The notes under the pieces are model-generated. The model had not been told where the DNA came from, did no database searches, and saw only the letters and a program-made list of their open reading frames with translations. The position numbers were made by a program, and so were the translations under genes. From NCBI RefSeq assembly GCF_000745235.1, contig NZ_JQNL01000001.1, positions 3,962,001-4,026,000 on the forward strand: a stretch of DNA of 64,000 nt. The letters are read 5' to 3'. The stretch's first letter is position 1. The number at the start of each line of letters is the position of its first letter. This stretch comes from Luteibacter mycovicinus (GTDB lineage Bacteria; Pseudomonadota; Gammaproteobacteria; Xanthomonadales; Rhodanobacteraceae). Of this stretch, positions 46,402 through 55,880 are shown piece after piece.

Positions 46402-49400
46402 TCAGGTACCGTCGCCGAACTTGTACGTCACACCGACGTAGTACTGGCGGCCGGCGTACTCGAGCGAGACCAGGCGTGCCCGGGTGTCGCCACCGAGGTA
46501 CTGGTGAGGCGTCGCCTTGTTCAGGTTGATCACCGAGGCGGTCACCATGACGTGCTTGTTGAACTCGTAGTCGCCATTCAGATCGATCTGGTGGTACGGC
46601 TGCGAGTAGATCGGGAGACCTGACGCCAGACCCTGCATGGTACGGCCCGTCCAGTTGTCGCTGGCGCGTAGCAGCAGGCCGTTCTTTTCGTAGAACACCG
46701 AAACGTTGGCGGCGTACTTGGCGCTGCCGATCAGCTCGGCCTTGCCCACCGCGGTGTCGCCCAGGGTCACGGCCGTTTCGTTCGTCTTGTTGAGCGTGTA
46801 GTTGCCGATGTAGCCGAAGCCCGACTCCCAGGTGTGCTGGGTGTAGAGCTCGATACCCTTCGACGTACCCGAACGGCCGTTGGCGTTGGTGCTGTACTGC
46901 AGGAAGTTCTCTTCCGTGCCGCCGACGTTCACCGTGAGGTTGTTCACGGTCACGGGCACGACGAAGTTCTTCACCTTCTTCTGGAACAGATCCAGGCCGA
47001 GCACCGAATGCTCGGCGTAGTACCACTCGCCGGCCAGGTCGAACTGCGTCGCCGTGAACGGCTTCAGATCGGCGTTGGCGCCGCTGCCGTACCAGCCGGG
47101 CAGGGGAGCACCGAACTGCTTGCGGTCGTTGTAGTACTCCTGGGTGTTGTTGGTCAGGCTGCCCAGCTGCGCCAGATCGGTGTAGTTGGCACGGGCGAGT
47201 GCCTGCGAGCCGGCCGCGCGAACCAGGAAGTCGTCCGTCACGTTCCACGCGATGTTGAAGCTCGGCAACAGCTTGTTGTAACGCTTGGACGTCGTGGCGT
47301 TGGTGTAGTTCTGGATGACCGCGACTTCACGGGGCAGGTACTGGAAGTCACCTGCCGCGCAGGCGCCGCCGCCGGCATTCACACCCGATGCCGGGCAGAT
47401 AAGGATGTTGCCCGCCGGATCGTGGTAGTACACCGCGTTGTTGGTTGTGATCTGATCCGCGACTGTCAGGTCCTGCTTGGTGCTGACGAAACGCAGGCCG
47501 ACGTTGCCGCGAATCGTACCCGTGTCGAAGTTGGCCTGGACGTACGCCGCGGCGATCTTCTCCTGGATCGACGACTTGTTCTCGGGATGGTTGTAGAGCA
47601 CCCGGTCGTACGTGGAGTTGAGGTAGTTGTAGTACGCCGGGAAGTTGATCGCCGGGAATGTATTGTCGTTGTAGACCTCGCTGCTGCCGTCCAGGCTGTT
47701 GGCCTGCAGGAAGCCCGCGGGCAGCTGGCCGGCGTTCGGGTCGCAGGTCTGGAACTGCGACTCGGTGCCCTTGCAGTACCAGCGCACCTCGTTGCTCTGC
47801 TGCTCGGCCTTGTTGTCACGGTATTTCACGCCGAACTGCAGCGACTGCATCCAGCTGTCGTCGAACGCCCAGGTGAAGTCCGCCTGTGCGAAGTTCTGCG
47901 ATGTCGTGGTGTTGACCATGTTGGAACCGGTCGAGCCCAGGTCGACCTGGCCGGCGCCGTTCTGCATGGCCTGCAGTACACCCGGAGCCGCGGTGAGGGT
48001 CGGCTTGCCGTCCAGGGTCCATGCGGCACCGTTGCTGCCGTCGACCCACGCGCCGTTGACGAAGTTACGCGGCTTGGCGGCCATGCCCAGTTCGACCGAC
48101 GGTCCGCCCTTGGCCCACGTGCGGCCGACGTTGAAGGTACCGCTGAGCGCGCCGCCGTTGTCCCACTCGCCTTCGAGGTTGAGGGTCTGCGAGGTGGCTT
48201 TCTCGACGGAGTAGTTGCCGGTGACCCACGGGATTTCCGTGGAGCACACGTCGACGGCCTGGCGTACCGCACCCGTGCTCGGGTTGACCGTGGCGTTACA
48301 GCCCGTGCCAGCGGGTGGCAGCACGTAGTTGGCACCCGTCACGACGGTGTGCGACGGATCGAAAGACAAGCCGTTGTTCGCGAGTAGGCGGCCCTGCTGG
48401 TCGGCGTAGTTGCTGTTGCCCGGCAGGCCCCATTCGGGCACTTCCAGCGTGTTGGTGATCTGGGTCTGCTCGCGCTGAAAACGGAAGTAGTTACCCGTCA
48501 GCAGGAAATGATCGCTCGGCTTGAATTGCATGGTCGCCTGGGCGCCCTTGGTCTTCAGGTCAAGCTGGTTCCGGCTGGTCGAGAACTGCTGCGGCATCCA
48601 GTAACCGTTATAGGTATTGCCACCCTGATCGACGACGCCACCGCCGGACCAGAGGTCGATATTGGGTGCGACGTCGCCGCCGTACGGCTTGCCGTGTATA
48701 TCCGTCGGTGGCGCGGTACAGGTGGCGTGGTCGGTGCAGTCATCGCCCCACCAGTGCCAGCTGTTGGCGTTGGCGGTGTAGTTGATGTCACGACGCTTCT
48801 GTTCGGAACCGGCGACGAGGAAGCCAAAAGTCTCGTCTTTGTTCTTCCAGGACCAGAGCGCGGAAACCTGAGGCTTGATCTTGCTGCTGTTGTCCGAGCC
48901 GGCCATGTTCGCGGAGACGAAGCCGTCGTTAGCCTTCATTTCCAGCGGACGGCGGGTGCGCAGGTCGACGTTGCCGCCGATGCCGCCTTCGTCGAGGCGC
49001 GCCTCGAGGCTCTTGTAGAGCTTGATGTCGGAGAACATGTTCGCCGGCATCAGGGTGTAGTTGAACGAGCGCGTCAGACCGGCGGAAGTATCGGCCGAGG
49101 CCACGTAGTTGCCGTTCAGTTCGGTGAGGGTCAGTTCGGGCGCGAGGCCGCGGATACTGACCGTCTTGCCTTCGCCGGACTCGCGGCTGATGACGACGCC
49201 AGGGACGTGGGCGAGCGCGTCGGCGATATTCTTGGCCGGAAACTGCGCGATGTTCTGCGCGTTGATCACTTCGACGATGGAGTTGGCTTCGCGCTTGTCC
49301 TGGACGTTCTGGTCGATGGACTGGGCATACGTCGTGACCACGACGGCGTCGAGGTTAGTCGTGCTGTCGTCCTTGGCCTTGTCGGTTTTTCGGGTCTTTT

Positions 49401-49584
49401 CGTCCTGTTTCGCTTTGGCACCATCGGTGGTCTGCGCCGTGGCGTCGGAGCTCGTCGCGACGGGTGCGGCGGCCTGCGCGAAGGCGGTCGCCGGAACGGC
49501 GAGCAGGCCCGCGAAGGACAGGGTGGCTACGGCGAGTGCAGCGCAGAGCGGCTTGCGCTTGAGCATGTGTGGCAGATAAGTCAT
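46402..49584 (-). CDS. TonB-dependent receptor, Xanthomonas-type glycan receptor
   Basis: 1060 residues: signal peptide (to ...ATAFAQ), a low-complexity linker rich in Lys, Asp and Thr, TonB box LDAVVVTTYAQS, plug (NIADALAHVPGVVISRESGEGKTVSIRGLAPELTLTELNG is characteristic of this sugar-receptor subgroup) and barrel ending YYVGVTYKFGDG. Such receptors import oligosaccharides. The start at 49584 begins the signal peptide with GAGGGAAG upstream. As first gene before GH92 and GH2 it should import complex mannose-containing glycans. Confidence 0.92.
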   Translation of the reverse strand: MTYLPHMLKRKPLCAALAVATLSFAGLLAVPATAFAQAAAPVATSSDATAQTTDGAKAKQDEKTRKTDKAKDDSTTNLDAVVVTTYAQSIDQNVQDKREANSIVEVINAQNIAQFPAKNIADALAHVPGVVISRESGEGKTVSIRGLAPELTLTELNGNYVASADTSAGLTRSFNYTLMPANMFSDIKLYKSLEARLDEGGIGGNVDLRTRRPLEMKANDGFVSANMAGSDNSSKIKPQVSALWSWKNKDETFGFLVAGSEQKRRDINYTANANSWHWWGDDCTDHATCTAPPTDIHGKPYGGDVAPNIDLWSGGGVVDQGGNTYNGYWMPQQFSTSRNQLDLKTKGAQATMQFKPSDHFLLTGNYFRFQREQTQITNTLEVPEWGLPGNSNYADQQGRLLANNGLSFDPSHTVVTGANYVLPPAGTGCNATVNPSTGAVRQAVDVCSTEIPWVTGNYSVEKATSQTLNLEGEWDNGGALSGTFNVGRTWAKGGPSVELGMAAKPRNFVNGAWVDGSNGAAWTLDGKPTLTAAPGVLQAMQNGAGQVDLGSTGSNMVNTTTSQNFAQADFTWAFDDSWMQSLQFGVKYRDNKAEQQSNEVRWYCKGTESQFQTCDPNAGQLPAGFLQANSLDGSSEVYNDNTFPAINFPAYYNYLNSTYDRVLYNHPENKSSIQEKIAAAYVQANFDTGTIRGNVGLRFVSTKQDLTVADQITTNNAVYYHDPAGNILICPASGVNAGGGACAAGDFQYLPREVAVIQNYTNATTSKRYNKLLPSFNIAWNVTDDFLVRAAGSQALARANYTDLAQLGSLTNNTQEYYNDRKQFGAPLPGWYGSGANADLKPFTATQFDLAGEWYYAEHSVLGLDLFQKKVKNFVVPVTVNNLTVNVGGTEENFLQYSTNANGRSGTSKGIELYTQHTWESGFGYIGNYTLNKTNETAVTLGDTAVGKAELIGSAKYAANVSVFYEKNGLLLRASDNWTGRTMQGLASGLPIYSQPYHQIDLNGDYEFNKHVMVTASVINLNKATPHQYLGGDTRARLVSLEYAGRQYYVGVTYKFGDGT

Positions 49585-49818
49585 TGCGATTACTTCCCTC
49601 AGTAATATGCGCGCACGTTGAGACGGCGCGTTGATCCCCGTTTCATCACTGCAGATACCCGGTCTAGTTCTGCACACGGCCTCCTGCTGGAACCAGTTAC
49701 ATCGATCCAAAATTCCACGCCCGACAAGCCCCCGCTTGTCGGTGATGGTCTCTCTGCGGTTTTCTATGGGTTAAAGCGGATGCCCGCCTGCGCAACCACC
49801 GTTTTCCAACACGGGGTC

Positions 49819-50178: not shown

Positions 50179-50928
50179 TCAGCCGGTTTCCCGCACACCG
50201 GTAATCAACCCGTCGGTCGCCCAGGCACGAAGCAGCGATCCCGCCGCCGAGGCGACGTCTTTCTCACGCGCCGTCGAGGACAGCCACTCGCAGACTTCGC
50301 CAAACGTTGCGCCCGCTACCACGAGGTCGAGGCACGCGTGTTCCGCACGCGTCATAGAAACGAAACGTGGCGTCAGCTCATGCCGCCAGACGCGGACGCC
50401 GTGACCGTTATCGGTCGCGCTGTCGGATGGACGTGTATGTATTCCCTGGCCGGTCGCGATGCCGGCCCAGAGAGCGGGAGCGTTCGTGTGCAGCTGTCGG
50501 TACATGAGGGTAGGAACGAACGAGAACTGGACGCCATCCCAATCCCTCACGTGCAGTTCCTCGAGCGCTAGGCCTGAAGCGTTTCTTCCTGAAAATGCGG
50601 TGCGAAGCGCCCATTCGAGCCACGCCAGTTCACTCAGTTCGAGCCTTTCCGGGAAGGCTCGCGCGAGATAGTCCGGAAAGTCGCTGCCGTAATGATCCAG
50701 CGACCAGGACGTTGAACCATGTGCTTCGATATAGGCCCCGGCGTGCACGTGGAAGACGTCGTCGCCCAGCCACGCCGCGCATTTCTCGTAGGTATCGCGC
50801 AACGCGGCCAGCAGCTGACCGCGAACGTTGTTTGCATACACGCGCTGGCCCGCCGCCGACAGCTCGGGCACCGGGCGTCCGGTCATGACCGCCGTGAGCA
50901 GGCGGCGCTGGAGGTCGCCCAGACTCAT
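50179..50928 (-). CDS. bufC2: Bufferin maturation partner, DUF2063 family (module 2)
   Basis: 249 residues: N-terminal DUF2063 domain (LQRRLLTAVMTGRP, VYANNVRGQLLAALRDTYEKCAAWLG) and a C-terminal half with ELAWLEWALRTAFSG and a winged-helix-like end. DUF2063 proteins are the usual partners of MNIO enzymes and are thought to present the precursor peptide. It overlaps bufB2 by four bases. Last gene of the double bufferin cluster. Confidence 0.9.
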   Translation of the reverse strand: MSLGDLQRRLLTAVMTGRPVPELSAAGQRVYANNVRGQLLAALRDTYEKCAAWLGDDVFHVHAGAYIEAHGSTSWSLDHYGSDFPDYLARAFPERLELSELAWLEWALRTAFSGRNASGLALEELHVRDWDGVQFSFVPTLMYRQLHTNAPALWAGIATGQGIHTRPSDSATDNGHGVRVWRHELTPRFVSMTRAEHACLDLVVAGATFGEVCEWLSSTAREKDVASAAGSLLRAWATDGLITGVRETG

Positions 50929-51758
50929 GGCGTCGTGACGATCGCCGGTCGTCGCGCCCGGTCGAGTTCCGACAGCAACTCGGGCAATGGCGGAATGTGG
51001 TCATCACGCTCAATCATGACGGCGACCTCGCCGAGGCGCGGGACGAATCGCCGGTACAAATCCCATACGGTCTCGGGCACCGGGGCGTCGTGCGTGTCGA
51101 CGAGCATGTCCACGCCCTGGCTGTGACCTGCCAGATGGATCTGGCGCACACGGTCCAGGGGTAAGCGCTCGATCCATGCTTCGGTATCGAGTCCATGATT
51201 GGTCGCGCTGACGACGATGTTGTTGACGTCGAGAAGAAGAAAGCATCCCGTGCGTTCGCACAGTGCCTTCAGGAAGCCCGGTTCATCCATGGTGTTGTCG
51301 GAAAACGACAGATAGGTCGACGGGTTCTCGAGCACGAGTGCGCGTCCGAGGGCGTCCTGCGCATCGAGCACGTTTCTGGCGAGGACATCGAGCGCTTCGA
51401 CCGTATAGGGAAGAGGGAGCAGGTCGTGGGAGTTGATGCCGCCGACACCGGTCCAGGAAACGTGATCGGATAGCCACAGGGGCTCTATGGTGTCGGCCAG
51501 CGCGCGCAGGCGTCTGAGATAGTCGAGGTCGACACCGTCGTCCGAGCCCAGATTCATGGATACGCCGTGCAAAGCGACTTCGTAGCGGTCACGGATGCGC
51601 GCAAGCGTATCCAGGGGCCGGCCGCCTTCGACCATGAAGTTTTCCGAGATGACTTCGACGAAATCCACCGGCTGCTGACGCGCGAGGAATTCGGCGTAGT
51701 GAGGTACGCGAAGCCCGAGCCCGTAACCCTGAAACGGTGGAGGTATGGTCGGTTGCAT
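50925..51758 (-). CDS. bufB2: MNIO (DUF692) multinuclear iron enzyme, module 2
   Basis: 277 residues, TIM-barrel MNIO enzyme. Metal-binding motifs: LHGVSMNLG, LSDHVSWTG, LENPSTYLS, LLLDVNNIVVSA, QIHLAGHSQG, DTHDAPV and MIERDDHIP. It should modify Cys residues of its precursor, BufA2, by an oxygen-dependent reaction using two or three iron ions (thiooxazole formation is known for bufferins). ATG 51758 has AAGGA seven bases away; the longer frame crosses bufA2. It is paralogous to bufB1 in the same cluster. Confidence 0.93.
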   Translation of the reverse strand: MQPTIPPPFQGYGLGLRVPHYAEFLARQQPVDFVEVISENFMVEGGRPLDTLARIRDRYEVALHGVSMNLGSDDGVDLDYLRRLRALADTIEPLWLSDHVSWTGVGGINSHDLLPLPYTVEALDVLARNVLDAQDALGRALVLENPSTYLSFSDNTMDEPGFLKALCERTGCFLLLDVNNIVVSATNHGLDTEAWIERLPLDRVRQIHLAGHSQGVDMLVDTHDAPVPETVWDLYRRFVPRLGEVAVMIERDDHIPPLPELLSELDRARRPAIVTTP

Positions 51759-51808: not shown

Positions 51809-52078
51809 TCAGGCCGCGGGCGGCGTGGTGCTGCCGTTCTGTGCCTTGCACTCCTGCACGGAGACGGCCTTGAAGCCCTGGCCCTTGCATTCGTTCTGCC
51901 CCTTGCACTGGTGATTGCCCGACTTGCAATCGGACGTCCCCTTGCAGCTGTTGATGCCATAACAGTGAACGGTCTTGCCGGCTGCCTGTTCGGCGGCCTG
52001 TGCCGGTGCGCTGATGGCGGCGGCGGAGACGGCGAAGAGGGCGGCAGCCGCGGCGATGCTGTGGGTGGCGGTATTCAT
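51809..52078 (-). CDS. bufA2: Bufferin precursor peptide, six-Cys type
   Basis: 89 residues: signal peptide (hydrophobic run to ...ISAPAQA), then a mature part with six Cys in a repetitive Lys-Gly setting (HCYGINSCKG, SDCKSGNHQCKG, NECKGQG, VQECKAQ). This matches the bufferin precursor group of DUF2282-like RiPPs that bind copper after Cys modification by MNIO. A GTAACC-N16-CGAA promoter lies directly upstream. The mature peptide acts in the periplasm. Metal preference is inference. Confidence 0.9.
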   Translation of the reverse strand: MNTATHSIAAAAALFAVSAAAISAPAQAAEQAAGKTVHCYGINSCKGTSDCKSGNHQCKGQNECKGQGFKAVSVQECKAQNGSTTPPAA

Positions 52079-52118
52079 GGCGTTCTCCAGAAGGTGTGCC
52101 GGAAGTGGCATTGATTGA

Positions 52119-52144
52119 TTCGTTGCCGGTGGCTATTCGGTTAC
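52119..52144 (-). promoter_or_regulatory. ECF (SigF-type) promoter of bufA2
   Basis: On the minus strand GTAACC (52144-52139) is followed after exactly 16 bases by CGAA (52122-52119), identical to the SigF promoter consensus described for Caulobacter. The -10 is 41 bases before the bufA2 start. It lies inside the cluster, between doxX and bufA2. Confidence 0.85.
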
Positions 52145-52169
52145 AGCTGCCCGCACTATCTTTTCGCGT

Positions 52170-52634
52170 TCAGCGAATGCCGAATGCATGATCGAGCGAC
52201 ACGCGTCCGCCTCCGCGTGCGATCAGGTACAGCAGGATGGCCGCCCAGGACAGATGGGTAGGCCATGCGTCGGGATACACGAAGATCTCGATGATGGTCG
52301 TCATGCCGAGGAGAACGGTGGCGGAGAGGCGCGTCATGATGCCCAGCACCAGGAGTACGGGTACAAAGGTTTCGACATAGGCGGACATGTGCGCCGCGAT
52401 TTCCGGCGGCACCAGCGGAAGCTTGTATTCCGTGCGGAACAGTTCGTACGTGCTCTCCGTGATGGTCAGAAAACCTTCGACCTTCGTGCGTCCGGACTGG
52501 AAGAAGATCGCGGCGATGGAGACGCGGGCTACCAAGGCCAGGAAGCTGTGGCCGATGTGGGATTCGACGGCTCCGGCGATCGCGTTCCACCGTGCGCGCA
52601 CGGAATTGCCGGAGAAAGAGCGTGGTTCGTTCAT
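52170..52634 (-). CDS. DoxX-family membrane protein of the bufferin cluster
   Basis: 154 residues, four transmembrane helices. [26 protein letters not shown] and [30 protein letters not shown] are DoxX signatures, as is the C-terminal [11 protein letters not shown]. DoxX proteins often accompany MNIO clusters (BufD in some); quinone-linked or redox roles are suspected. It starts 14 bases after the bufC1 stop, so it belongs to module 1. Confidence 0.9.
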
Positions 52635-52648
52635 GGGAATCGGATCCT

Positions 52649-53380
52649 TCAGGGTGAGGCGAAGGCACCCGCCTCGACGAGGAGGGGGACGAGCAGGTCG
52701 ATGCGGGTGCCGGGATGAGCATCGTTGGTTGTACGGATCGCATCGGCCAGCGACAGACCGGCCTCACACGCATGCACGAGAGACAACACGGCGGGACTGG
52801 CTGGCGTGACGCGTACTTCGTGATTGCGCCGGGTAACCAGTACAGTCTCCGGCTCCCACACGAGATCGCCATGGACGGCCTCACCGGCCCGGCTGGGTGA
52901 CCAGATGGAAAAGGCAGGCAGGTCGGAGGCGAACGTGCGCGTCGCCGGATGGACCGTGAGATGCCATGACGCCATGGCGGCGGGATCCGCCTGTCGCCAG
53001 GATGCTACGTCGAGGTGCGATGCGTCGGGCGCGATGTAGCTCTCCGTCCACAAGCGGTCGAGGCGTGCGACATCGGGTAAATAGGGCAGTTCGAAGGCGG
53101 GTGCGAACCTCGCGAGGAAGTCGGCGAAGCGTTCGCCGTAGGCCACGAGTCGCGCGTCGCGCGGCGGATCTTCGCCGACGAAGATGGCTGCCGCCGACCG
53201 GAACCAGTCGCGCCCCACGAGACACGATACCGCAGGGTAGTTGGCTTCGAGGGCATCGATGCACCCACGCATTACCGTGTTGCGATACACGGCGAACGCA
53301 GGATGGTCGGAGAACGCCGTGCGGCTGCCATCCGCCCCTAGAGCCTCCGCGAACGCTTGCTGGAAAGACGCGGACGTCAT
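52649..53380 (-). CDS. bufC1: Bufferin maturation partner, DUF2063 family (module 1)
   Basis: 243 residues: DUF2063 N-terminal domain ([41 protein letters not shown]) and a C-terminal domain ([32 protein letters not shown]). It likely binds BufA1 and hands it to BufB1. ATG 53380 overlaps the bufB1 stop by four bases; longer upstream frame rejected because it crosses bufB1. Confidence 0.9.
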
Positions 53381-54213
53381 GGCGTCCGTCCGTGCGCATT
53401 GGCAAGAATCGCCTGAGCGATATCGCGCTCGGCCAGCAGCGTCGGGAACGATGGAACGTTGCCATCGCGCTCTATCAGGGTCGGCACCGGACCTGTCTTT
53501 TGCAGTGTGTAGCTGTAGAGGTCCCACACCTCGGTGGCGACCGGTGCATCGTGCGAATCGATCAGGAGGCCTTCGATTCCCTCGTCGAATGCGTGTCCGG
53601 CCAGATGAATCTCGGTGACGAACGAAAGAGGGAAGGCATCGATGTAGTCGTGGGCATCGGCGGCAAGATTTCGGGCGCTGACGTGGACGTTGTTCATATC
53701 CAGCAACAGACCGCATCCCGTGCGTCTGGCAAGCTCGGCCAGAAATGCCGTCTCGCTCCACTCGTGCCCGTCGATCGGGAGGTAATGGGATGGGTTTTCA
53801 AGCGAGATGCGCCGCCCGAGTGCCGTCTGCGTCCGGTCGACGTGCTCGACGATTCTCGACAGGGCCTCGTGCGTCCGGGGGAAGGGAAGCAGGTCGGGAA
53901 GATAGTTCCCGTCCCACGATGACCACGCGAGGTGCTCCGATACCAGAACGGGCTGCGTTCGCTCGATGAGGGTCCTCAGTCGCCGCAGCCACACGGGATC
54001 GGGCGGGGTCTCCCCGGCCAGTGACAGGGAGACCCCGTGCAGCGACAGCGGGAACCGCGACGCGAGCGCATCCAGCAGGGCCAGTCGCGGCCCACCATCC
54101 ACCGCGTAGTTTTCCGGATGGATCTCGAGCCAAAGGGCCGGCGACGCACAAGCGAAGACGTCGTCGGCGTGCTGGGGCTTGAAACCGATACCCGCGGTGG
54201 GTGCGAGGGTCAT
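53377..54213 (-). CDS. bufB1: MNIO (DUF692) multinuclear iron enzyme, module 1
   Basis: 278 residues. MNIO motifs: EIHPENYAVDGG, LHGVSLSLAG, SEHLAWSSW, LENPSHYLP, LLLDMNNVHVSARN, EIHLAGHAFD, DSHDAPV and LIERDGNVP. The expected reaction is oxidative Cys modification of BufA1. It starts seven bases after bufA1. Divergence from bufB2 (different loops after LAGH and in the C-terminus) suggests each enzyme is matched to its own precursor. Confidence 0.93.
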   Translation of the reverse strand: MTLAPTAGIGFKPQHADDVFACASPALWLEIHPENYAVDGGPRLALLDALASRFPLSLHGVSLSLAGETPPDPVWLRRLRTLIERTQPVLVSEHLAWSSWDGNYLPDLLPFPRTHEALSRIVEHVDRTQTALGRRISLENPSHYLPIDGHEWSETAFLAELARRTGCGLLLDMNNVHVSARNLAADAHDYIDAFPLSFVTEIHLAGHAFDEGIEGLLIDSHDAPVATEVWDLYSYTLQKTGPVPTLIERDGNVPSFPTLLAERDIAQAILANAHGRTP

Positions 54214-54220
54214 GGCGAGC

Positions 54221-54490
54221 TCAACCGACCTTGGTCAGGGAGCCGTTGCCCTTGGGGGTCTTGATGGCGGTACACGTGCCGGCCGGGACGTTCTTCCACG
54301 CGTTCTTCTGATAATCCGCCTTCGCGGTACCAGCGCAGGTCGTACCGGGGCCGGCGGCACAGTCGTTCTGGCCGGCCTTGGCGACACCCCAGCATTTTTC
54401 GACGGCGGGTTTGGCGGCGTCGGCGTGAGCGACACCGGCGGTCAGGGCGGCGAAGGTCAGGGCGAGGGAAGCGATGTGGCGATGGTTCAT
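54221..54490 (-). CDS. bufA1: Bufferin precursor peptide, DUF2282 four-Cys type
   Basis: 89 residues: signal peptide (to ...GVAHA) and a mature DUF2282 part with four Cys ([42 protein letters not shown]). In studied bufferins of this type the two central Cys become thiooxazoles and the outer two form a disulfide, giving copper binding in the periplasm. ATG 54490 has GGAG upstream. A SigF-type promoter precedes it. It is first gene of the seven-gene cluster. Confidence 0.93.
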
Positions 54491-54533
54491 GGCGGTCTCC
54501 TTGGATCCGGACACGGCGTCCGGTACAGGAGAA

Positions 54534-54559
54534 TTCGCTCGAAAGGGCCCGCTGGTTAC
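54534..54559 (-). promoter_or_regulatory. ECF (SigF-type) promoter of bufA1
   Basis: Minus-strand GTAACC (54559-54554), then exactly 16 bases, then CGAA (54537-54534), 43 bases before the bufA1 start. It forms half of a divergent pair with the sigma-gene promoter; the two -35 boxes make the inverted repeat GGTTACACC...GGTGTAACC. Confidence 0.88.
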
Positions 54560-54577
54560 ACCCGGACATCGCGAGGT

Positions 54578-54603
54578 GTAACCGGATGGGGCGCGGACGC
54601 GAA
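54578..54603 (+). promoter_or_regulatory. ECF (SigF-type) promoter of the sigma gene
   Basis: GTAACC (54578-54583), 16 bases, CGAA (54600-54603), 75 bases before the sigma start. Identical spacing and boxes to the bufA1 and bufA2 sites imply that the sigma factor activates its own gene. Confidence 0.88.
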
Positions 54604-54678
54604 TAGTGACTATGAACTCCCGTTACCTCCAGCGTTACACTCCGAGATGCCCGTGTTCGGGTGACCACAGGCGGGACG

Positions 54679-55242
54679 ATGTCCGATAATGACGCCACCA
54701 CCTCCGCCGAGGTCGAACTGCGCTGGTGTTTCCTGCAAGGGCTGAGCGGTGATGCCGCGCAGTACCGCCTTTTCCTCGGCAGGCTGTCGTCGCACTTGCG
54801 TGCATACCTGCGTCGCCGACTGCCGAAGGCTCCGGCCGATGTTGAGGACGTACTGCAGGAGGCCCTGCTGGCCATTCATAACGCACGGCACACCTATCAG
54901 GACGATCAGTCACTGACGGCCTGGGTCTATGCCATTACCCGGTACAAGCTGATGGATTTCTTTCGCGCGCACGCGCGACGAGAGGCATTGCACGAGCCCC
55001 TCTGGGAAGACGATAACCTCTTCGGTACTGTCGACCTGGAGCCGGCTGAAGCAAGGCGCGATCTCGGCGAGTTACTGGTCACCCTGCCTGAGCGCCATCG
55101 CCTCCCGATCGAACTGGTCAAGCTTCAGGGCTTGTCCGTGGCCGAAGCCGCGTCTCGCAGCGGATTGTCCGAATCGGCGGTCAAAGTCGGCATACACCGC
55201 GGCCTCAAGGCCCTCGCCACGCGCATTCGAGGCCTGACATGA
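54679..55242 (+). CDS. sigF: ECF sigma factor (SigF/ECF26-like)
   Basis: 187 residues. Region 2: PADVEDVLQEALLAIHNARHTYQDDQSLTAWVYAITRYKLMDFFRAHAR; region 4: LPERHRLPIELVKLQGLSVAEAASRSGLSESAVKVGIHRGLKAL. It directs RNA polymerase to GTAACC-N16-CGAA promoters, three of which occur here. Start ATG 54679 fits the region-1 border; GTG 54661 is an alternative. Its stop overlaps the nrsF start (ATGA). It should be held inactive at the membrane by the NrsF product until metal or redox stress. Confidence 0.92.
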   Translation: MSDNDATTSAEVELRWCFLQGLSGDAAQYRLFLGRLSSHLRAYLRRRLPKAPADVEDVLQEALLAIHNARHTYQDDQSLTAWVYAITRYKLMDFFRAHARREALHEPLWEDDNLFGTVDLEPAEARRDLGELLVTLPERHRLPIELVKLQGLSVAEAASRSGLSESAVKVGIHRGLKALATRIRGLT

Positions 55243-55880
55243 AGACCGACGATCTGATCTCCCTGCTGGCAAGCCAGACGACACCGGTCGATCGGCGTGT
55301 CCCGCCCTGGCGCTTCGCGGTAGCCATCCTCATCGGATTGTCGTCGGCCACGGTGTTGATGGCGGTCTTTCTGGGTATCCGTCCGGATCTCGGCGAGGTG
55401 GTCTCCATGCCGGTCTTCTGGTTCCGGCTCGGATTCGCGGTGGCCCTCGGCGGCGGTGCCCTGCTCGTGACGCTCCGGCTGTCGCGTCCGGGCGTGTCGG
55501 TGGGTGCGGGATGGACCGCCATCCTGATACCGGCCGTGATCGCCTGGATCGCCGCAGGCATCGTGCTCGCCGGCGCGGACGTCGATGCCCGCGTGCCGTT
55601 GTTGCTCGGTCATACCTGGAAGGTGTGCTCGATCATCATCGCCGTCCTGTCCATACCGCCGTTTGCCGCGATGTTGTGGGCTGTGCGCGGTATGGCGCCC
55701 GTGCGGCTGCGCCTGGCGGGAGCCGCTGCGGGATTGCTGGCCGGTGCGACCTCCGCCGTTGCCTACTGCCTGCATTGTCCGGAAATGGCGCCGCCGTTCT
55801 GGTCGGTCTGGTATTTGCTTGGGATGTTGGTGCCCTCGGTGGTGGGTGCGTTGCTGGGGCCGCGGGTTTTGCGTTGGTAG
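55239..55880 (+). CDS. nrsF: NrsF-type (DUF1109) membrane anti-sigma factor
   Basis: 213 residues with six predicted transmembrane helices. The start MKTDDLISLLASQTTPVDRRVPPWRF is typical of NrsF/DUF1109 proteins. Two Cys in the last loop (AYCLHCPEMAPPFWSVWYLLGM) match the Cys pair that senses chromium, cadmium or related stress in NrsF. It binds the sigma factor and releases it under stress. ATGA overlap with the sigma gene. Confidence 0.92.
   Translation: MKTDDLISLLASQTTPVDRRVPPWRFAVAILIGLSSATVLMAVFLGIRPDLGEVVSMPVFWFRLGFAVALGGGALLVTLRLSRPGVSVGAGWTAILIPAVIAWIAAGIVLAGADVDARVPLLLGHTWKVCSIIIAVLSIPPFAAMLWAVRGMAPVRLRLAGAAAGLLAGATSAVAYCLHCPEMAPPFWSVWYLLGMLVPSVVGALLGPRVLRW

Follow-up and report, generated by a model that had tools for sequence, protein, structure and literature searches.

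The question raised by this locus is whether one sigma factor controls two neighbouring bufferin modules as well as its own gene. The locus lies in a 64,000-nucleotide stretch of Luteibacter mycovicinus DNA (the window; positions 3,962,001-4,026,000 of a genome of 4,625,266 bases in a single contig), where bufferin module 1 (bufA1-B1-C1-doxX) and module 2 (bufA2-B2-C2) lie next to sigF and nrsF, the genes of an extracytoplasmic function (ECF) sigma factor and an NrsF-family anti-sigma factor. Bufferins as a class are thiooxazole-modified, copper-binding products. An earlier reading of the DNA (the original prediction) had proposed three exact GTAACC-N16-CGAA promoters here, and all three were present letter for letter, with coordinates and strands right. 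Statements about published systems refer to the available excerpts of the papers cited.

54534..54559, minus strand: predicted SigF-type promoter of bufferin module 1 (bufA1-B1-C1-doxX); -35 GTAACC 54559-54554, -10 CGAA 54537-54534
54578..54603, plus strand: predicted SigF-type promoter of sigF-nrsF; -35 GTAACC 54578-54583, -10 CGAA 54600-54603
52119..52144, minus strand: predicted internal SigF-type promoter of bufferin module 2 (bufA2-B2-C2); -35 GTAACC 52144-52139, -10 CGAA 52122-52119
54554..54583: 9-bp perfect inverted repeat GGTTACACC-N12-GGTGTAACC, formed by the two back-to-back -35 boxes

A scan of the window found 3 matches to the motif, against a mean of 0.03 and a largest value of 1 in 100 dinucleotide-preserving shuffles, which bears out the claim that chance occurrence is very unlikely. 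The motif is also, as had been said, the published SigF consensus of Caulobacter, GTAACC-N16-CGAA (PMC3511200). The distances from the end of CGAA to the ATG are 43 nt for bufA1 (54490), 40 nt for bufA2 (52078) and 75 nt for sigF (54679), in line with the original prediction, with the qualification that the sigF side has a further ATG 8 nt past the -10 box (54612). The three sites are almost certainly SigF (ECF16) promoters of module 1, sigF-nrsF and module 2; the ECF16 label is taken from papers and rests on the anti-sigma factor and the motif. The divergent -35 boxes are 18 nt apart in the window and 12-125 nt apart across the 20 composite loci described below, and given the 18-nt gap the upstream DNA may be contested by two polymerases at the divergent pair.

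Conservation of the three sites

The comparison covered 20 composite loci, made up of the window, 17 further Luteibacter loci, one Pinirhizobacter (L049) and Coralloluteibacterium stylophorae (L174). L146, L147 and L174 were added from further searches, and four of the 20 loci first collected were left out, namely L053 and L054 (no bufA2, rearranged, several nrsF copies) and L057 and L058 (distant NrsF types). The sites before bufA1, on the sigF side and before bufA2 were all kept in 20 out of 20 loci. This gave 60 core matches at spacer 16, three per locus, and none at spacers 15, 17, 18 or 19. Other spacers gave two matches at 14, one at 11 and one at 20, together with five at 12 that were the same sites, with spacers ending in CGAACGAA.

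The flanks were also kept among the 60 sites, with a T before GTAACC in all 60, a pyrimidine after CGAA in 59 and a purine before CGAA in 59. Across 50 tabulated sites (including two from L053 and L054 and leaving out the sigF-side sites of L045, L049 and L051) the remainder of the spacer was little conserved, and an A/T-rich block lay 12-20 nt upstream of the -35 box. The flanks and the A/T block are the appearance of promoters in a GC-rich genome. The layout is kept in the related bacteria compared, and the promoter prediction is therefore sound, for a kind of system that was already known.

The gene content around the sites varied. A second nrsF stands between the SigF promoter and sigF (nrsF-sigF-nrsF) in 4 of the 20 loci (L045, L049, L051 and L147), and bufB1 is absent between bufA1 and bufC1 in three (L055, L056 and L146). 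The idea that one multinuclear non-heme iron-dependent oxidase (MNIO) serves both peptides in these three was set aside; their genomes have one or two other MNIOs away from the cluster. The rearranged loci L053 and L054, from two other genomes of the family, have three high-scoring nrsF copies among bufA1, bufB1-bufC1 and sigF, and several exact SigF-type sites. In L040, doxX and the bufA2 promoter are separated by an open reading frame (ORF) of about 170 codons.

Distribution of the motif across genomes

The 10-letter core matched 11 times in the genome of the window, against 3 times for the reversed pattern. The original prediction had proposed a genome-wide scan for listing the whole regulon. 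With the extended motif, TGTAACC-N16-CGAAY, exact sites were confined to this locus: its three sites are the only ones in the 4.63 Mb genome, and the 8 other core matches lack the flanks. A further 50 sites differ from the motif by a single mismatch (22 for the reversed control), and these may include weaker members of the regulon.

The 8 core matches outside the locus are four copies of one site and four single sites. The single sites lie within stop-to-stop frames of 190 to 642 codons, which, by eye, we take to be IspH-like, glycosyltransferase-like, PheT-like and one with no name. This frame criterion is weak and alone separates nothing, because the three sites of the locus likewise lie within stop-to-stop frames (221 to 414 codons). 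The recurrent site is present at genome positions 3015, 4603015, 4610134 and 4617241, and three of the four copies follow one another at intervals of about 7.1 kb close to the end of the contig. The L001 copy, which is the one copy read, lies within a Rep_trans replication-initiator ORF (PF02486), as if the site belonged to a filamentous-phage-like element in tandem or to an assembly repeat.

The presence of the extended motif followed that of NrsF. A search of 197 family genomes found an NrsF match in 108. High-scoring matches (E below 1e-60) came from 16 Luteibacter and three other genomes, and two Luteibacter (G197 and G199) were added from further searches. NrsF was present in 18 of 23 Luteibacter genomes and absent from 5, one of which is 80% complete. 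The 18 NrsF-positive genomes have 3 to 8 extended sites each and the 5 NrsF-negative genomes have zero, while the reversed extended pattern gave 9 matches over all 23.

Beyond the composite set, we used the 79 SigF loci that were the best matches listed. Eight of these already belong to the composite set (six Luteibacter, the Pinirhizobacter and the Coralloluteibacterium), which leaves 71 outside. Among these listed matches, 52 of the 71 have an exact core no more than 450 nt upstream of sigF on the same strand, and a back-to-back partner site is found in 29. Other spacers gave no match at 13-15 or 17-19, one at 20 and nine at 12 that were the same sites. A tblastn search with the window genes found the joined Buf1-DoxX-Buf2 layout only in Luteibacter, Pinirhizobacter and Coralloluteibacterium among the 79 best matches listed. 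A family-wide pattern, YGTAACC-N15-RCGAAY, had a match in 114 of 194 genomes.

Genes of the locus

The genes beside the three sites were assigned as follows.

54679..55242, plus strand: sigF, ECF sigma factor with regions 2 and 4 (PF04542, PF08281)
55239..55880, plus strand: nrsF, NrsF-family anti-sigma factor (PF06532; Cys at 130, 177 and 180)
54221..54490, minus strand: bufA1, Buf1 (DUF2282) bufferin precursor (PF10048)
53377..54213, minus strand: bufB1, MNIO bufferin maturase (PF05114; NF050167 351 bits, cut-off 310)
52649..53380, minus strand: bufC1, DUF2063 partner (PF09836)
52170..52634, minus strand: doxX (bufD), by family search
51809..52078, minus strand: bufA2, Buf2-type bufferin precursor (NF050166, 105 bits, cut-off 60)
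50925..51758, minus strand: bufB2, MNIO bufferin maturase (NF050167 356.9 bits, cut-off 310)
50179..50928, minus strand: bufC2, DUF2063 partner, by family search

The SigF protein matches NF009188, a generic sigma-factor subfamily (273.6 bits, cut-off 250), and the adjoining anti-sigma factor belongs to the NrsF/DUF1109 family (PF06532 240.1 bits, cut-off 26.8). Its C130, C177 and C180 are close to Caulobacter C131 and C181 by residue number. Module 1 has the composition of a Buf1 module, a DUF2282 precursor with MNIO and DUF2063 genes (PF10048, PF05114, PF09836), and module 2 that of a Buf2 module, a BufA2-family precursor with MNIO and DUF2063 genes. In NCBIfam, bufA1 had no match and bufC1 had none that passed the cut-off, and the window proteins missed the cut-offs of the DoxX-type and BufC-type equivalogs there. 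Searching the genome with bufB1 at E 1e-10 returned just two matches, the two MNIOs of the locus, and PF00174 (MsrP-type) had no match in this genome. Downstream of module 2 on the same strand is a TonB-dependent receptor gene (PF00593, PF07715; window 46402-49620) with no exact SigF site before it.

Predicted regulation by SigF

We are highly confident that the three sites are promoters of the adjacent SigF, within a stress circuit held by NrsF. The sites, the gene families, their conservation and the co-occurrence with NrsF are observed, and from them we infer transcription, inducer and feedback strength. At rest, to judge by homology, SigF would be held by NrsF, a member of a membrane anti-sigma family. 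Metal or thiol stress would release SigF, and SigF-RNA polymerase would then fire the bufA1-B1-C1-doxX promoter and the back-to-back promoter of sigF-nrsF, so that the sigma factor and its inhibitor would both come under positive feedback. The internal promoter would top up bufA2-B2-C2 above read-through from the bufA1 promoter. By homology, the same circuit as in Caulobacter and Sinorhizobium meliloti would run here, with a third promoter boosting module 2.

Two consequences had been drawn in the original prediction, autoregulation of the sigma factor and independent boosting of module 2. For the former, the SigF-type site before sigF stands and is kept in all 20 loci; the strength of autoregulation varies in Caulobacter, and that of the feedback here is a prediction. 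For the latter, the internal site is real and kept to the same extent, and boosting would be its expected effect. A consensus scan found no terminator-like element on the minus strand from bufA1 to bufA2, including the stretch between doxX and bufA2, so transcription probably also reads through from the first promoter, and the internal promoter most likely adds to this.

Several points weigh against this account. Promoter activity in this organism is predicted from sequence. The bare core is not rare, and the five NrsF-negative Luteibacter hold 1 to 8 core matches each; with the T/C flank, three of them (G062, G133 and G152) have one match each. Among the matches listed, 19 of the 71 outside loci lack an exact core within 450 nt of sigF. 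The window NrsF, while of the same family, scores below the NCBI equivalog AntiSigF_NrsF (NF042994; 162.6 bits, cut-off 300), and the sensed signal may therefore differ. In L044 the sigF frame opens with an ATG inside the spacer of the SigF promoter. The transcript of that promoter could not include this ATG, and simple autoregulation of the full ORF is therefore hard to reconcile there.

Alternative explanations

The alternative that survives best is compatible with SigF control, and we consider it possible though on the whole unlikely. The sigF promoter would be mainly basal or doubly recognised, autoregulation would be weak and a second leader promoter would supply SigF. Caulobacter sigF was described as not strongly auto-regulated under chromium, where a second unknown factor is needed (PMC3511200), and another ECF16 system reportedly has basal activity of a similar kind; however, copper induces Caulobacter sigF (PMC8224329). 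A TTGCGA-N18-TATATC/TAAAAC-like-N7-ATG string, present in 7 of the 20 loci, would suit a second leader promoter, but sigma-70-like scores over the 20 loci were not above shuffles (mean z 0.5) and the best sigma-70-like match in the window overlaps the sigF start. A conserved housekeeping promoter in the sigF leader was rejected on the 7 of 20 loci and these scores, and it is not claimed for the window.

It is very improbable that the palindrome at 54554-54583 is the operator of a separate dimeric regulator and not two sigma boxes. Its perfect 9-bp arms in the window favour an operator, but across the 20 loci the two boxes stand anywhere between 12 and 125 nt apart, and outside TGTAACC the arms are lost. 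All 60 sites retain CGAA at a distance of 16 nt, and bufA2 has a single box. We rejected the operator because neither its arms nor its gap is conserved. Chance matches can be dismissed almost completely: the core alone does occur a few times per genome (8 other matches here, 3 for the reversed pattern), but 20 of 20 composite loci have the motif with a single spacer length, and none of the 5 NrsF-negative genomes has the extended motif.

Leaders and predicted 5' ends

Given SigF promoters at the three sites, the start of each message can be placed, and three features lie near these expected 5' ends.

54507..54523, minus strand: bufA1-leader stem-loop (CCGGAC-gccgt-GTCCGG) near the expected 5' end
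52097..52110, minus strand: place of the relatives' TGCC...GGCA stem in the bufA2 leader, by alignment only
54612..54689, plus strand: 25-codon ORF, not in the sigF frame, that opens with the ATG 8 nt past the sigF -10 box

Over the 20 loci, hairpin scores averaged 15.4 for the bufA1 leader (shuffles 7.1 ± 1.2) and 11.3 for the bufA2 leader (3.6 ± 1.0), while the sigF-side leader showed no hairpin above chance (5.0; 6.1 ± 1.2). The L147 bufA1 leader was cut short by the search pattern in the fold comparison. The score was 10.2 at 26 extra Luteibacter sites (7.1 ± 1.0) and 7.9 at 43 sites in 18 loci of other genera (6.1 ± 0.9). Scored on a structure derived from the same sequences, 81% of cells were paired in the bufA1 stem and 86% in the bufA2 stem. 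Covariation in the bufA1 stem was above all 500 shuffles, with one slid version close (0.130 vs 0.138); three of the five bufA2 pairs were invariant and the covariation support was weak.

The bufA1 and bufA2 leaders therefore tend to open with a stem-loop just past the expected start, which in the window is clear for bufA1 only. Against the stem-loops, the best fold of the window bufA2 leader is another hairpin (TTCCGG with CTGGAG) that reaches the Shine-Dalgarno stretch, the window bufA1 leader, folded as a whole, does not exceed shuffles in stability (-10.5 vs -10.4), the L049 bufA2 leader lacks the four-pair stem and that of L146 folds otherwise. The stem-loop at the start of most bufferin leaders probably protects the 5' end. 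In Burkholderiales, bufA1-type leaders have a different stem in the same place past the SigF promoter (L188, L205, L209-L211, L237, L239 and L250), of the kinds GTATCC...GGATAC, GTATCC...GGGTAC and GTACCC...GGGTAC.

On the sigF side, an ATG stands 8-10 nt past CGAA in 18 of 20 loci, where about 0.05 per locus would be expected for this range, which was chosen after viewing the data. In 14 of the 19 other composite loci this ATG shares the sigF frame, and in three (L045, L051 and L147) the ATG 9 nt past the -10 box is the start of the extra nrsF copy. The first sigF-side gene can be read from such an ATG in 17 of the 20 loci (sigF in 14, extra nrsF in 3), and near-leaderless sigF or nrsF messages are likely in most relatives if transcription starts there. 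The sigF of the window would start at 54679, 75 nt past the -10 box. An ATG at offset 7 on the bufA2 side was considered as a second leaderless start and rejected; its frame is not kept, and its letters belong to the TGCC...GGCA stem.

Additional SigF-type sites in other Luteibacter

Further extended sites were found in 11 of the 18 NrsF-positive genomes (26 sites, against 6 reversed-pattern matches in the same 18). By a simple gene finder of our own, 23 of the 26 are intergenic and 3 overlap genes. Four families account for 19 of the 23 intergenic sites: a lactonase-type propeller (5), a stand-alone DoxX (5), a CxxCxxCC protein (6) and orphan bufA1 (3), the last with no MNIO match nearby. Single cases downstream of a site were a thioredoxin-like protein, a sigma-70-family factor, an alpha/beta hydrolase and a cytochrome b561. 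Ten downstream proteins were identified by Pfam, the other lactonase, DoxX and CxxCxxCC proteins by homolog searches and two bufA1 from sequence.

When the homologs were taken as the starting point, 8 of 9 for lactonase, 5 of 6 for DoxX and 7 of 20 for the CxxCxxCC protein had an exact core upstream. The CxxCxxCC homologs of the two NrsF-negative genomes that have the gene showed no exact core upstream. The genome of the window has, of the lactonase, DoxX and CxxCxxCC targets, only the CxxCxxCC homolog, with no exact or one-mismatch core upstream.

We tentatively suggest, while holding it somewhat less probable than its converse, that Luteibacter and its kin use two opposite 5'-end designs under one sigma factor. 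Effector messages (bufA1, bufA2 and some of the recruited targets) with a conserved stem-loop and a Shine-Dalgarno leader would last and be strongly translated, and the sigma/anti-sigma message would be near-leaderless, keeping the regulator low and short-lived. Species by species, the regulon would grow as lactonase, DoxX, CxxCxxCC-protein and orphan bufA1 genes acquire the same promoter.

Comparison with known systems

The locus would be a compact stress regulon, in which a single sigma/anti-sigma pair with three exact promoters drives, from one place, two predicted classes of copper-binding ribosomally synthesized and post-translationally modified peptides. It allows a clean test of why two bufferin types are kept and of what sets their ratio. 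Specific predictions beyond the Caulobacter accounts available come from the leader stem-loops and from the ATG by the expected sigF transcript start, and the recruited targets are candidate partners of bufferin action. We recognised no description of the joined layout or of the leader stem-loops among the open-licence PMC papers listed by our searches.

The closest known system is SigF-NrsF of Caulobacter crescentus, where the promoter sequence was defined by 5' rapid amplification of cDNA ends (5' RACE) and lacZ fusions, and where SigF is kept in check by NrsF, two cysteines of which are important (PMC3511200). In Caulobacter, copper induces sigF, nrsF and both bufferin operons, and a mutant in sigF is sensitive to copper; sigF is among the copper-upregulated genes with values of 4.44, 4.70, 2.78 and 2.17, presumably log2 changes (PMC8224329). 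The two systems share the consensus, the NrsF anti-sigma factor, the sigF-nrsF operon, and a Buf1 operon with DoxX and a Buf2 operon both under SigF, by prediction in the locus here (PMC3511200; PMC8224329). In the excerpts available, however, the Caulobacter Buf2 operon is elsewhere and msrPQ is a further target, whereas here Buf1 and Buf2 form one locus with an internal promoter.

S. meliloti RpoE7-EcfR7, also of ECF16, has divergent DUF692 and sigma operons with a divergent pair of TGTAAC...CGAA promoters, one for each, and self-activation. It differs in having one module, and the available part of the account describes no internal third promoter (PMC6180224). Bufferin/captophorin clusters share the core of BufA, BufB (MNIO), BufC (DUF2063) and DoxX; unlike those in the excerpts available (PMC12452194; PMC12668002), one SigF-NrsF pair would here serve both modules in one locus. 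Earlier publications cover the motif, the divergent promoter pair and the control of both bufferin types by SigF, and the variant here is that both bufferin modules are joined in one locus.

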